Shown: in pieces, positions 33,927 to 37,960 of the stretch
How positions within the stretch are numbered: the first letter of the stretch is position 1
Layout: every line of letters begins with the position of its first letter
Assembly (NCBI RefSeq): GCF_000193375.1
Contig: NC_015315.1
Location: forward strand, 248,001-312,000
Origin: Thermoproteus uzoniensis 768-20
Lineage (GTDB): Archaea; Thermoproteota; Thermoprotei; Thermoproteales; Thermoproteaceae
Direction of reading: 5' to 3'
DNA: 64,000 nt
Made by a program: the position numbers and the translations under genes
The notes under the pieces: model-generated
The model's database searches: none
Seen by the model: the letters and a program-made list of their open reading frames with translations, nothing else
Told to the model about the DNA's origin: nothing

Positions 33927-36683
33927 ATGCCTAAAAAGTATGTTTACGACTTCGAAGAGGCCGATTACAGGAACAAGAAGCTCTTCGGCGGCAAGGGGGC
34001 CAGCTTAATACAAATGACGCAGCTCGGGCTGAGGGTCCCCCCCGGCTTTATAATAACTACGGAGGCTTGTAAAGACTTCTTCGCGCCTAGGAGGGCCGAG
34101 ATAGCTGAGCTGGAGGCGCTCCTCGAGAAACAGCCTCCTCCCGAGGTGAGGGACCAGGCGATAGGCAAGCTCTTCGCGTTGATCAACGGTCTGGACTTGC
34201 CGCAAGGCCTCTGGGAGGAGGTCCTGCAACACATGAGGCGTCTCGAGGAGAAGGTGGGCAGGAAATTCGGCGATCCGGAGAACCCGTTGTTGGTCTCTGT
34301 GCGCTCCGGCGCGGCGGTCTCCATGCCCGGCATGATGGACACCGTGCTCAACCTGGGCCTCAACGACCAGACCGTCAAGGGGCTGGCCAAACAGACCGGC
34401 AACGAGTGGTTCGCGTACGACGCCTATAGGCGCTTCGTCAACATGTTCGGCAGAATAGTTCTGGGCATCGACGACAAGCTGTTCTCCTCGGCTTGGGAGG
34501 AGATAAAGAAGAAGTACAACGCCAAGGAGGACCCCGACGTACCTCTAGAGGGTTTGAAAGAGGCCGTCGAACGGTTTAAGGAGATAATAAGGAGACAATA
34601 CGGCGAGTTCCCGCAAGACCCCTGGGAACAGCTCAAGCTGGCCATAAAGGCAGTCTTCCGCTCTTGGGACAGCCCACGCGCCATATTCTACAGAGTAGCC
34701 GAGAAGATAACGCCCGACGTGGCCGACTGCACCGCGGTCAACGTGGTGACGATGGTCTTTGGCAACATGGGCTGGGACTCCGGCACGGGCGTCGTGTTCT
34801 CGCGCGACGTGGCCACCGGCGAGAATAGGCTCTACGGCGAGTTCCTCCCCGTCGCCCAAGGCGAGGACGTAGTCGCCGGCATAAGGACCCCGATGGATAT
34901 AGAGGAGTTCAGGAAGAGGTTCCCGCACCTATACGACGAGCTGTACAAGGGCGTGAAGTTGTTGGAGAAAGCCAACAAGGACGTACAAGACGTCGAGTTC
35001 ACCGTGGAGAGGGGCAAACTCTACTTCCTCCAGTGTCGCAACGCGAAGATGACCCCGCTGGCCAGAGTCAAGACGGCGGTCGATATGGCCAAGGAAGGCG
35101 TTATCACCAAGGAGGAGGCCTTGTTGAAGGTATCGCCTGACCACGTACTCCAGTTGCTCTACCCGCGTATAGATCCCAAGGCCAAGGCCCAGCCGATAGC
35201 CAAAGGCCTCCCCGCGAGCCCCGGCGCCGTGTCGGGCCAGCTGGTGTTCCACCCAGACGACGCCGTGAGGTGGGCGCGCGAGGGCAAGAAGGTGATCTTG
35301 GCCAGAGTGGAGACTAAGCCGGACGACGTCCACGGCTTCTACGCGGCTGTCGGCATCTTGACGAGCAGAGGAGGGATGACCTCCCACGCCGCCGTCGTGG
35401 CCAGAGCCATCGGCAAGCCGGCAGTGGTCGGCGCTGAGGCCTTGGTAATCGACGAGGCGGCCAAGACCATGAGCGTCGGCGGGCAGGTGTTCAAGGAAGG
35501 CGACTGGGTCACCATAGACGGCAACACGGGCAACGTCTACGCCGGGGTGGTGCCCACGGTGGAGCCCGAGCTGATACCGGAGCTGGAGGAGCTGTTGAGC
35601 TGGGCCGACGAGGTCAGAAGGCTCGGCGTGAGGGCCAACGCCGATCTGCCCGAGGACGCCGCCCTGGCCAGGAAGTTCGGCGCTAGGGGCATAGGGCTTT
35701 TGAGGATAGAGCGAATGTTTAGAAAGCCGGAGAGGCTCGATCTGCTTCGCAAAGTGATACTGGCCGAGACCCGCGAGGAGAGGGTCAAACACCTAGAGCC
35801 GCTGTACAGGATGCTGAAGGGCGACTTCAAGGAGATTTTCAAGATCATGGACGGCTTGCCCGTCATCGTCAGGTTGATAGACCCGCCGCTCCACGAATTC
35901 CTGCCGAAGCCCGAGGAGGTCCTGCAACAGATATACGAGGCAAAGGCCGCCGGCAGGGACACAAAGGAGCTGGAGCGGCTCTACGCCAGAGTCAAGGCGT
36001 TGCAGGAGGCCAACCCGATGTTGGGCCACCGCGGCGTGCGCGTCGGCGTGACCTACCCCGAGTTCTACTACTACCTCTCCAGGGCTATAGCTGAGGCCGC
36101 CGCCGAGCTCAAGAAGGAGGGGCACAACCCGGTGGTGGAGATAATGATACCGCAGGTAAGCGACGTGAGGGAGATAAGATATGTCAAGGAAAAGGGCATA
36201 CTCCCCGCACTGCGCGACGTGGAGAAGGAGACAGGCGTGAGGCTGGAGGTCAAGATAGGCACTATGGTGGAGACCGTGAGGGCCGCCCTCACCATGGACC
36301 AGATAGCTAAGGAGGTCGACTTCATAAGCTTCGGGACCAACGACCTGACCCAGGCCGTCTTCAGCTTCAGCAGAGACGACGCCGAGAACAAGTTCATACC
36401 GCAGTATCTAGATCTCAAGATACTCGACGCCGACCCCTTCGAGACGCTGGACGTGGCAGGCGTCGGCAAGCTGGTGGAGCTGGCCGCGCGGACCGCCAAG
36501 GAGGTGAACCCCAAGATAGAGGTCGGCGTATGCGGCGAGCACGGCGGCGATCCCAAGTCCATATACTTCTTCGAAAAGACCGCGGTGGATTACGTCAGCG
36601 CCTCGCCGTTCAGAGTGCCTCTAGCGAGGCTCGCGGCGGCTCAGGCGAGGATACTGGGCGGCGGCAAGGCCGATAGGGAATAA
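33927..36683 (+). CDS. ppdK: Pyruvate, phosphate dikinase
   Basis: A 918-aa enzyme with all three domains. The N-terminal ATP-grasp part has LFGGKGASLIQMTQLGLRVPPGF and VSVRSGAAVSMPGMMDTVLN. The central phosphohistidine domain has ILTSRGGMTSHAAVVARA with the catalytic His. The C-terminal PEP/pyruvate TIM barrel has RGIGLLRIERMF, LGHRGVRVGVTYPEFY, FGTNDLTQ and VGVCGEHGGDP with the catalytic Cys. It interconverts pyruvate, ATP and Pi with PEP, AMP and PPi. Thermoproteus uses PPDK alongside PEP synthase and pyruvate kinase. It is slightly longer than the usual 880 residues. AT-rich upstream DNA (33774-33926) holds its promoter. Confidence 0.97.
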   Translation: MPKKYVYDFEEADYRNKKLFGGKGASLIQMTQLGLRVPPGFIITTEACKDFFAPRRAEIAELEALLEKQPPPEVRDQAIGKLFALINGLDLPQGLWEEVLQHMRRLEEKVGRKFGDPENPLLVSVRSGAAVSMPGMMDTVLNLGLNDQTVKGLAKQTGNEWFAYDAYRRFVNMFGRIVLGIDDKLFSSAWEEIKKKYNAKEDPDVPLEGLKEAVERFKEIIRRQYGEFPQDPWEQLKLAIKAVFRSWDSPRAIFYRVAEKITPDVADCTAVNVVTMVFGNMGWDSGTGVVFSRDVATGENRLYGEFLPVAQGEDVVAGIRTPMDIEEFRKRFPHLYDELYKGVKLLEKANKDVQDVEFTVERGKLYFLQCRNAKMTPLARVKTAVDMAKEGVITKEEALLKVSPDHVLQLLYPRIDPKAKAQPIAKGLPASPGAVSGQLVFHPDDAVRWAREGKKVILARVETKPDDVHGFYAAVGILTSRGGMTSHAAVVARAIGKPAVVGAEALVIDEAAKTMSVGGQVFKEGDWVTIDGNTGNVYAGVVPTVEPELIPELEELLSWADEVRRLGVRANADLPEDAALARKFGARGIGLLRIERMFRKPERLDLLRKVILAETREERVKHLEPLYRMLKGDFKEIFKIMDGLPVIVRLIDPPLHEFLPKPEEVLQQIYEAKAAGRDTKELERLYARVKALQEANPMLGHRGVRVGVTYPEFYYYLSRAIAEAAAELKKEGHNPVVEIMIPQVSDVREIRYVKEKGILPALRDVEKETGVRLEVKIGTMVETVRAALTMDQIAKEVDFISFGTNDLTQAVFSFSRDDAENKFIPQYLDLKILDADPFETLDVAGVGKLVELAARTAKEVNPKIEVGVCGEHGGDPKSIYFFEKTAVDYVSASPFRVPLARLAAAQARILGGGKADRE

Positions 36684-36700
36684 CGCCTTTTTGTCCAACG

Positions 36701-36749
36701 TCAGTCTGGGACGGCCAGCTCATCTAGTCCTCATATCGGACTTCATCAC
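36701..36749 (-). ncRNA. Candidate C/D box sRNA
   Basis: On the minus strand a perfect C box GTGATGA (36749-36743) is followed 35 nt later by a D box CTGA (36704-36701). Between them lies AGATGA (a C'-like box, about 36725-36720) preceded by a weak D'-like GACTA. Total length is near 49 nt, normal for the abundant archaeal 2'-O-methylation guides. Flanking bases give only a weak terminal stem. Chance matches to short boxes are possible, and no target was checked. It lies at the 3' end of the GC-rich minus-strand block. Confidence 0.35.
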
Positions 36750-36754
36750 GATCC

Positions 36755-37090
36755 GGCGCTCCCGGACCTCCCCAGGTTCGCCGCCTTCGCCGGCGCCTCC
36801 AAGCCCTACGGCTTGGGCACGCCGGCTTGGCAAGCCCCGAGGGCCGGGACGTCACGGCCTCCCGGAGAGCCGCGCGGGGGCTACGGCCGGCCCGGCGGGG
36901 TTGCGGGCCCCCCAGACCTAGGGCTCCTTTTGGAGGGGCGGGCGGCGGCCGCCCAGCCCACTGCTACCCCCGTCCTACCGGCGCGCGCCTACCCGCGCGG
37001 CCCGCCGAGAGGGTCCTCAGTCCCGGGTCCCCTCGAACGCCTGCCCGGCGGCTTATGGGTGCTCCGTCGGGGGACGGCCTCTCGGGGGCC
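36755..37090 (-). ncRNA. Probable structured non-coding RNA of unknown class (GC-rich block)
   Basis: The gap 36684-37126 contains no plausible protein gene on either strand and is conspicuously GC-rich. On the minus strand a strong promoter-like GGAAAGATTTAATA (about 37124-37111; TATA part 37117-37111) would start RNA near 37090. There a long helix begins: 37090-37078 pairs with 37012-36999 (GGCCCCCGAGAGG with CCTCTCGG-C-GGGCC). Nested inside are GTCCCC/GGGGAC (37075-37070 with 37032-37027) and small hairpins. Further hairpins follow, including CCAAGCC-GTAG-GGCTTGG near 36800-36817, a GNAR-type loop. SRP RNA and RNase P RNA were considered, but their core motifs were not found. The 3' end is a guess. 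Confidence 0.55.
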
Positions 37091-37110
37091 TAAGGATGTC
37101 CCCGCGGCGA

Positions 37111-37124
37111 TATTAAATCTTTCC
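37111..37124 (-). promoter_or_regulatory. BRE/TATA promoter of the putative structured RNA
   Basis: Read on the minus strand, GGAAAGATTTAATA combines a purine-rich BRE with a TTTAATA TATA element centred near 37114. The predicted start, 24-25 nt downstream (about 37090), coincides with the first base of the longest helix in the block. It lies just 3' of the stop codon of the protein phosphatase gene (37127), so it could also receive read-through from that gene. Confidence 0.5.
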
Positions 37125-37126
37125 GC

Positions 37127-37960
37127 CTATATCTCGACTCTGCGGATCGCCTCGTTGCTCAACAAGTCATAGATCTGGAGCACGCCGCCGTCGAGCACGG
37201 CCACCTTGGGCCTCACGGCCTTATAGGGCCCGGCCCGGCTCGTGAAGACGGTGTGGACCACCCCGTGGTGGCTCACGTAGCCTGCACTGACGTATAGATG
37301 CCCTCTGACGATCGCCTTGAGGCCCTCCTCCTTGAGGAACCTCTCCGTCGGGCCTCTGCCGTAGAGCCATATGCCGGGCCCGCGGGGGCTCGGGGCGTGG
37401 GCCTCGCAGTCGCACGGGTCGTTCCAGAGGGCTTGATAGATGAGGGGGTCCTCTGGCAGCACCAAGTCGCCGCTGGGCTTCGCCAGCTCCGCTATGGACG
37501 CGGGCTCCATGGAGGGCTCCTTGAGCGGTATCCCGCCGTGCACCGCCAAGACCGCGCCGTTGATCCTAGCCGCCACGGGCATCACCGCGAACATCCTCTC
37601 TATATCGCCGTAGAGCTCGCCGCAGTTCGGTATCCTCTTGTACAGACAGAGCTCGTCCATGAAGCCGCCGTCCTCGTTCATCAACGGCGACTCGTGGTTG
37701 CCTCTCAGCACGTAGGCCTTCCCCTCCAGGTACAGCTTGACCACGGTTGTCAAGACCTCGAGGCCCTTATTCCCCCTATCCACGTAGTCGCCCAGAAAGA
37801 GGAACCTCCCGCCATCCCACCTCTTCAAGACCAAGTCTAAGGTCTCCTTATCGCCGTGGAGGTCGCCGACTATCACCAACTTGTCCTCCTCCACGTCCAA
37901 GACCAGACCCCCCTCCTCGAACTTACGCCTAGCGTCGGCAAACAGCTGTCTCAAATCCAC
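37127..37960 (-). CDS. Serine/threonine protein phosphatase, PPP family (PP1/PP2A type)
   Basis: A 277-aa PPP phosphatase with all metal-site motifs: GDLHGD (from about residue 32), GDYVDRGNKG (about 57), RGNHESPL, VLAVHGGIP and a final VRGHLY and HTVFTSR. These residues bind two metals and the phosphate. Archaeal PPP enzymes, including one studied in Thermoproteus tenax, remove phosphate from Ser/Thr. The long acidic insert PCDCEAHAPSPRGPG with two Cys is unusual in this region. It is a single gene on the minus strand. The 120 bp upstream hold no other gene. Confidence 0.93.
   Translation of the reverse strand: MDLRQLFADARRKFEEGGLVLDVEEDKLVIVGDLHGDKETLDLVLKRWDGGRFLFLGDYVDRGNKGLEVLTTVVKLYLEGKAYVLRGNHESPLMNEDGGFMDELCLYKRIPNCGELYGDIERMFAVMPVAARINGAVLAVHGGIPLKEPSMEPASIAELAKPSGDLVLPEDPLIYQALWNDPCDCEAHAPSPRGPGIWLYGRGPTERFLKEEGLKAIVRGHLYVSAGYVSHHGVVHTVFTSRAGPYKAVRPKVAVLDGGVLQIYDLLSNEAIRRVEI

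Follow-up and report, generated by a model that had tools for sequence, protein, structure and literature searches.

A permuted SRP RNA gene of Thermoproteus between ppdK and a phosphatase gene in Thermoproteus uzoniensis

The block at positions 36684-37126 of the window, by which we mean the whole 64-kb stretch of Thermoproteus uzoniensis DNA that was analysed, holds a structured-RNA gene on its minus strand, namely a permuted gene encoding the RNA component of the signal recognition particle (SRP), which guides protein export in the cell. Our analysis almost certainly identifies it as the Thermoproteus permuted SRP RNA gene, whose endonuclease-cut ends would be joined in helix 8 to yield a circular 307-nt RNA. 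The RNA is not new, since it has been published for the genus and for this species, and the proposal of the initial annotation that the block encodes a likely new class of RNA is superseded (PMC4731332). Plagens et al. 2015 (eLife, PMC4731332) described the permuted SRP RNA gene of T. tenax between ppdK and ppa, with a 23-nt leader, an adjoining C/D box sRNA and a 309-nt RNA, and a similar permuted gene with a bulge-helix-bulge motif was reported for T. uzoniensis. At the level of sequence, the swapped order, an SRP fold with covariation, the conserved motifs and the cut-site geometry were established here for the gene itself. The transcript ends, circularity, in vitro endonuclease cleavage and protein binding are carried over from T. 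tenax by analogy (PMC4731332), and the RNA is probably processed in T. uzoniensis in the same way.

Locus and homology searches

The block is flanked by ppdK (33927-36683, plus strand), which an ortholog of a HAD hydrolase gene adjoins, and by a gene for a calcineurin-like metallophosphatase (37127-37960, minus strand). No conserved protein gene was found between these two flanks (36684-37126), and the block has a G+C content of 72%, compared with 59% in the window as a whole and 60-62% in the genes on either side, in agreement with its first description as GC-rich and gene-free. The G+C content rises to 78% in the core at 36759-37065, and only 0.06% of the 307-nt stretches of the window are as G+C-rich as this core. 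Plus-strand open reading frames within the block, such as 36813-37172, overlap conserved RNA structure and were rejected as chance readings of GC-rich sequence. Scans of the block for bacterial-type promoters and terminators gave no result, as expected in an archaeon.

We then compared the window with Rfam, a check that had been proposed with the initial annotation. No family reached its gathering score anywhere in the 64 kb. When the thresholds were relaxed, the block's strongest match was a sub-threshold one to Archaea_SRP (RF01857; 36849-36760, model positions 120-255), whose 19.5 bits as encoded fall short of the gathering score of 96.5 bits, a threshold for annotation and not a biological requirement. 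The low score arises because the permuted gene starts and ends inside helix 8. A match to HOXA11-AS1_3 in the block (E 1.9) was dismissed as chance, and RNase P RNA was likewise rejected, as the block has no match to type T (RF02357) and the genome carries its copy elsewhere (G000:C1:1810769-1810975). The canonical SRP RNAs of Pyrobaculum-like genomes (G007, G009-G018) score 69.9-87.7 bits, also under the gathering score of RF01857, indicating that routine annotation misses them too.

When the DNA of the block was searched against 61 genomes, four full-length relatives were found in the genus, together with weak partial matches in Pyrobaculum-like genomes. The partial matches in G007, G009, G012 and G017 lay inside or overlapped SRP RNA loci marked by RF01857. 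A canonical SRP RNA match was found in none of the six genus genomes, including this complete one, and all 16 other sampled genera have one. The SRP54 gene is present in all six genus genomes and the SRP19 gene in five, missing from the 76%-complete G005. On the searched genomes, the genus is thus without a canonical SRP RNA gene although its SRP proteins are present.

Permuted order and SRP fold

The predicted mature RNA extends on the minus strand from its 5' end at 37065 to its 3' end at 36759 (307 nt), its ends being placed by homology with the junction GGTCCGGGAG|GGAGCACG of the canonical Pyrobaculum RNA. By the same canonical-junction rule, the length is 307 nt in the window and 309 nt in G002, which we take to be the T. 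tenax genome. The latter equals the length published for the T. tenax RNA (PMC4731332). The canonical 3' part, comprising the 3' sides of helix 8 and helix 5, is encoded first (36962-37065, minus strand; alignment A2), and the canonical 5' part, comprising helices 3 and 4, the 5' side of helix 5, helix 6 and the 5' side of helix 8, is encoded second (36759-36961, minus strand), where both a profile match and the sub-threshold RF01857 match fall.

To quantify this order, we built a profile from 11 canonical SRP RNAs and scored it on the gene as encoded and after de-permutation. Canonical positions 30-210 matched 36939-36759 of the window on the minus strand. Across species, the part encoded second was matched by positions 19-222; the part encoded first was matched in G002 and G003 by positions 202-291, demonstrating that the halves are swapped. 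De-permutation raised the score of the window gene from 14.9 to 34.6 bits and lifted those of the other four species from 12.8 to 35.5, 21.0 to 47.6, 22.3 to 49.4 and 22.2 to 43.7 bits. A rotation scan in steps of 10 gave a maximum in the form of a broad plateau around the proposed cut, and the best other rotation tried for the window gene exceeded 34.6 bits by at most 0.4 bits. The halves swapped back are in the exact canonical order of Pyrobaculum, and the Thermoproteus gene is without helix 1.

The initial annotation had reported that the SRP helix 8 motif was absent. The motif is present and was missed because the permutation divides it, leaving ...GGUCCGGGAG (36771-36759) at the gene's 3' end and GGAGCAC... 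(37065-37059) at its 5' end. Once 36759 is joined to 37065, the sequence reads GGUCCGGGAG-GGAGCAC and agrees at every letter with the helix 8 tip of the canonical relatives. The junction sequence GGTCCGGGAGGGAGCAC does not differ from its canonical counterpart, and the SRP54-binding motif is complete once both ends are joined. Both its 5' part, GGAGGUCCGGGAG (36759-36771, minus strand), and its 3' part, GGAGCAC (37059-37065, minus strand), are invariant in 16 of 16 sequences, as is the GNAR tetraloop GUAG (36809-36806) of helix 6 (36799-36816, minus strand), the SRP19 site.

The consensus fold of the five rotated Thermoproteus sequences contains the Alu-side helices 3 and 4, a long helix 5, helix 6 with GUAG and helix 8, with a compensatory change in 20 of its 115 pairs. 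Helix 3 (36954-36936) and helix 4 (CTCC-AAAA-GGAG, 36935-36924), which together span 36924-36954 of the minus strand, both carry such changes. We further aligned the five sequences with the 11 canonical relatives (A2, 16 sequences). In this alignment, 94.7% of cells pair under the SRP fold and compensatory changes occur in 42 of 87 pairs, with a covariation score of 0.391. Slid controls, with partners moved by 1-3 columns, gave at most 52.5% of cells pairing, 12-19 compensatory pairs and a score of at most 0.104; this control retains the relatedness of the sequences but favours a structure taken from the same alignment. None of 500 shuffles, which ignore relatedness, reached the observed pairing or covariation values. 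These results bear out the view that the minus strand encodes a stable structured RNA, with the SRP fold as its structure.

Gene ends, processing site and alternative readings

The minus-strand BRE/TATA element noticed earlier, GGAAAGATTTAATA (37124-37111, with the TATA box TTAATA at 37116-37111), was recovered, and a TTAATA- or TATATAA-like box stands at the same place in four of five aligned Thermoproteus upstream regions. In both T. tenax and T. uzoniensis, TTAATA lies 26 nt upstream of the start (PMC4731332). The minus-strand transcript would begin some 23 nt before 37065; the published 23-nt leader of T. tenax would put the start near 37088, close to the 37090 predicted before. The leader that is presumably removed in processing would then occupy 37066-37088 of the minus strand, its length being that of T. 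tenax (PMC4731332).

At the 5' end, the bulge-helix-bulge geometry was read directly on the minus strand (37065-37071), with the helix strand CCCG at 37071-37068 and the bulge AC|G at 37067-37065. At the 3' end (36758-36764, minus strand), the helix strand CGGG lies at 36764-36761 and the bulge AG|C at 36760-36758, in accordance with this geometry and with the motif published for T. uzoniensis (PMC4731332). CCCG with a 3-base bulge in the leader and CGGG with a 3-base bulge at the 3' end are found at the predicted ends in all five species. The outer helix of the motif is irregular as read, and no regular one was confirmed. Under energy minimisation, most of the five precursors had the leader paired with their 3' end, in a register slightly off that of the bulge-helix-bulge.

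We propose that leader and trailer pair through CCCG and CGGG to form the bulge-helix-bulge, which the tRNA splicing endonuclease would cut after AC (37066) and after AG (36759). The mature ends would then be joined within the helix 8 tip by a tRNA ligase, presumably RtcB, as the earlier authors also inferred (PMC4731332), and the resulting circular 307-nt RNA would bind SRP19 and SRP54. In T. tenax, circularity was demonstrated by junction-crossing RNA-seq reads and Northern blots, a recombinant splicing endonuclease cleaved the substrate in vitro, and binding of SRP19 and SRP54 was shown (PMC4731332). In G002 (L067:3264-3270), only two bases separate the end of the mature SRP RNA from the stop codon of the phosphatase gene, which is convergent with it, indicating that this gene and the trailer half of the cut site overlap in antisense.

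It is very improbable that the RNA of T. uzoniensis stays uncircularised and functions instead in linear permuted form or as two paired halves. In favour of this, the native-order fold is nearly as stable as the rotated one (-210.7 versus -212.7 kcal/mol), but the cut-site geometry is kept in five species, the T. tenax reads cross the junction, and an open S-domain of T. tenax binds SRP19 and SRP54 poorly (PMC4731332).

The initial annotation had further built its RNA around a 13-bp helix between 37090-37078 and 37012-36999. The complementarity itself exists in the window (13 pairs, one bulge, -26.7 kcal/mol), but it is not conserved, and at the aligned positions of four congeners the pairing drops to -9.5, -6.7, -14.9 and -2.6 kcal/mol. 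The 5' arm falls within the discarded leader or immediately upstream of it, the 3' arm pairs elsewhere in the SRP fold, with 36858-36871, and the helix is not part of the mature fold. The SRP fold itself covaries extensively. A new class of structured RNA with this leader helix as its core is, on these grounds, scarcely credible.

The halves in the wrong order and the missing helix 1 might also be expected of a broken or relic gene with a functional canonical copy elsewhere, a reading to which we give next to no credence, as no canonical copy was found in this complete genome or in the other five of the genus, the motifs are all intact, the structure is under selection, and the T. tenax RNA is expressed and bound by its proteins (PMC4731332).

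The neighbouring C/D box sRNA, gene order and known systems

Downstream of the permuted SRP RNA gene, pattern matching located a C/D box sRNA gene (36701-36749, minus strand; C box GTGATGA, D box CTGA). The pattern with its conserved guide, TGATGA...GCCGTCCCAGNCTGA, is present once per genome in 16 of the 19 genomes of the family. The conserved guide adjoining the D box is GCCGTCCCAG, and the D guide GCCGUCCCAG is conserved across the family. No complementary 9-mer to the D guide was found in the 16S or 23S loci, and the D' guide yielded no more than one match of 9 nt, in the 23S rRNA locus.

In nine Pyrobaculum-like genomes with both genes on one contig, the C/D sRNA and the canonical SRP RNA gene are 3-6 kb apart, meaning that they were already neighbours before the permutation. 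In all four of these nine that were checked (L091-L094), it stands directly after the HAD hydrolase gene. We also read the gene orders of five Thermoproteus genomes (the window and loci L067, L068, L069 and L070) in the direction of ppdK. The order was ppdK, C/D reverse, SRP reverse, phosphatase in the window genome and G001; ppdK, C/D reverse, SRP forward, phosphatase in G002 and G003; and ppdK, SRP reverse, C/D reverse, phosphatase in G004. These three arrangements in five genomes indicate that local inversion or movement of the two RNA genes has taken place after the permutation, and such variation in order or orientation appears not to have been reported before. Tentatively, and with slightly less than even confidence, we suggest that the pair is a local rearrangement hot spot and that these same rearrangements may have produced the permutation in situ; its origin by this local process is our hypothesis.

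A universal RNA in the wrong order, restored by circularisation, is a published curiosity, and the candidate is thereby settled. Permuted genes are invisible to standard covariance models, with the result that Rfam scans give no SRP RNA in the genus; a rotated Thermoproteus SRP model would mend the annotation of all its sequenced species. The five-genome comparison adds independent covariation support and material on the origin of the permutation.

Compared with the published permuted SRP RNA of T. tenax and T. uzoniensis (PMC4731332), the gene likewise lies between ppdK and a gene for a protein phosphatase and has the same adjacent C/D box sRNA, the TTAATA box, the length rule, the split in helix 8, the loss of helix 1 and the bulge-helix-bulge at its ends. 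Nothing essential differs, although the SRP gene of the presumed T. tenax genome G002 is inverted with respect to its neighbours when compared with the window. With the canonical archaeal SRP RNA (RF01857; G007, G009-G018), it shares helices 3, 4, 5, 6 and 8, the GNAR loop, the SRP54 motif and covariation, but its halves are swapped, its ends lie in helix 8 and not in helix 1, helix 1 is absent, and the Rfam model does not detect it. RNase P RNA type T (RF02357), which the initial annotation had considered, is also a structured RNA of the Thermoproteaceae, with its gene elsewhere in the genome. As in permuted and split tRNA genes (PMC4731332), the splicing endonuclease would set the ends at a bulge-helix-bulge and ligation would restore the canonical order, but the SRP product is no tRNA and, by analogy with T. 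tenax, would stay circular.
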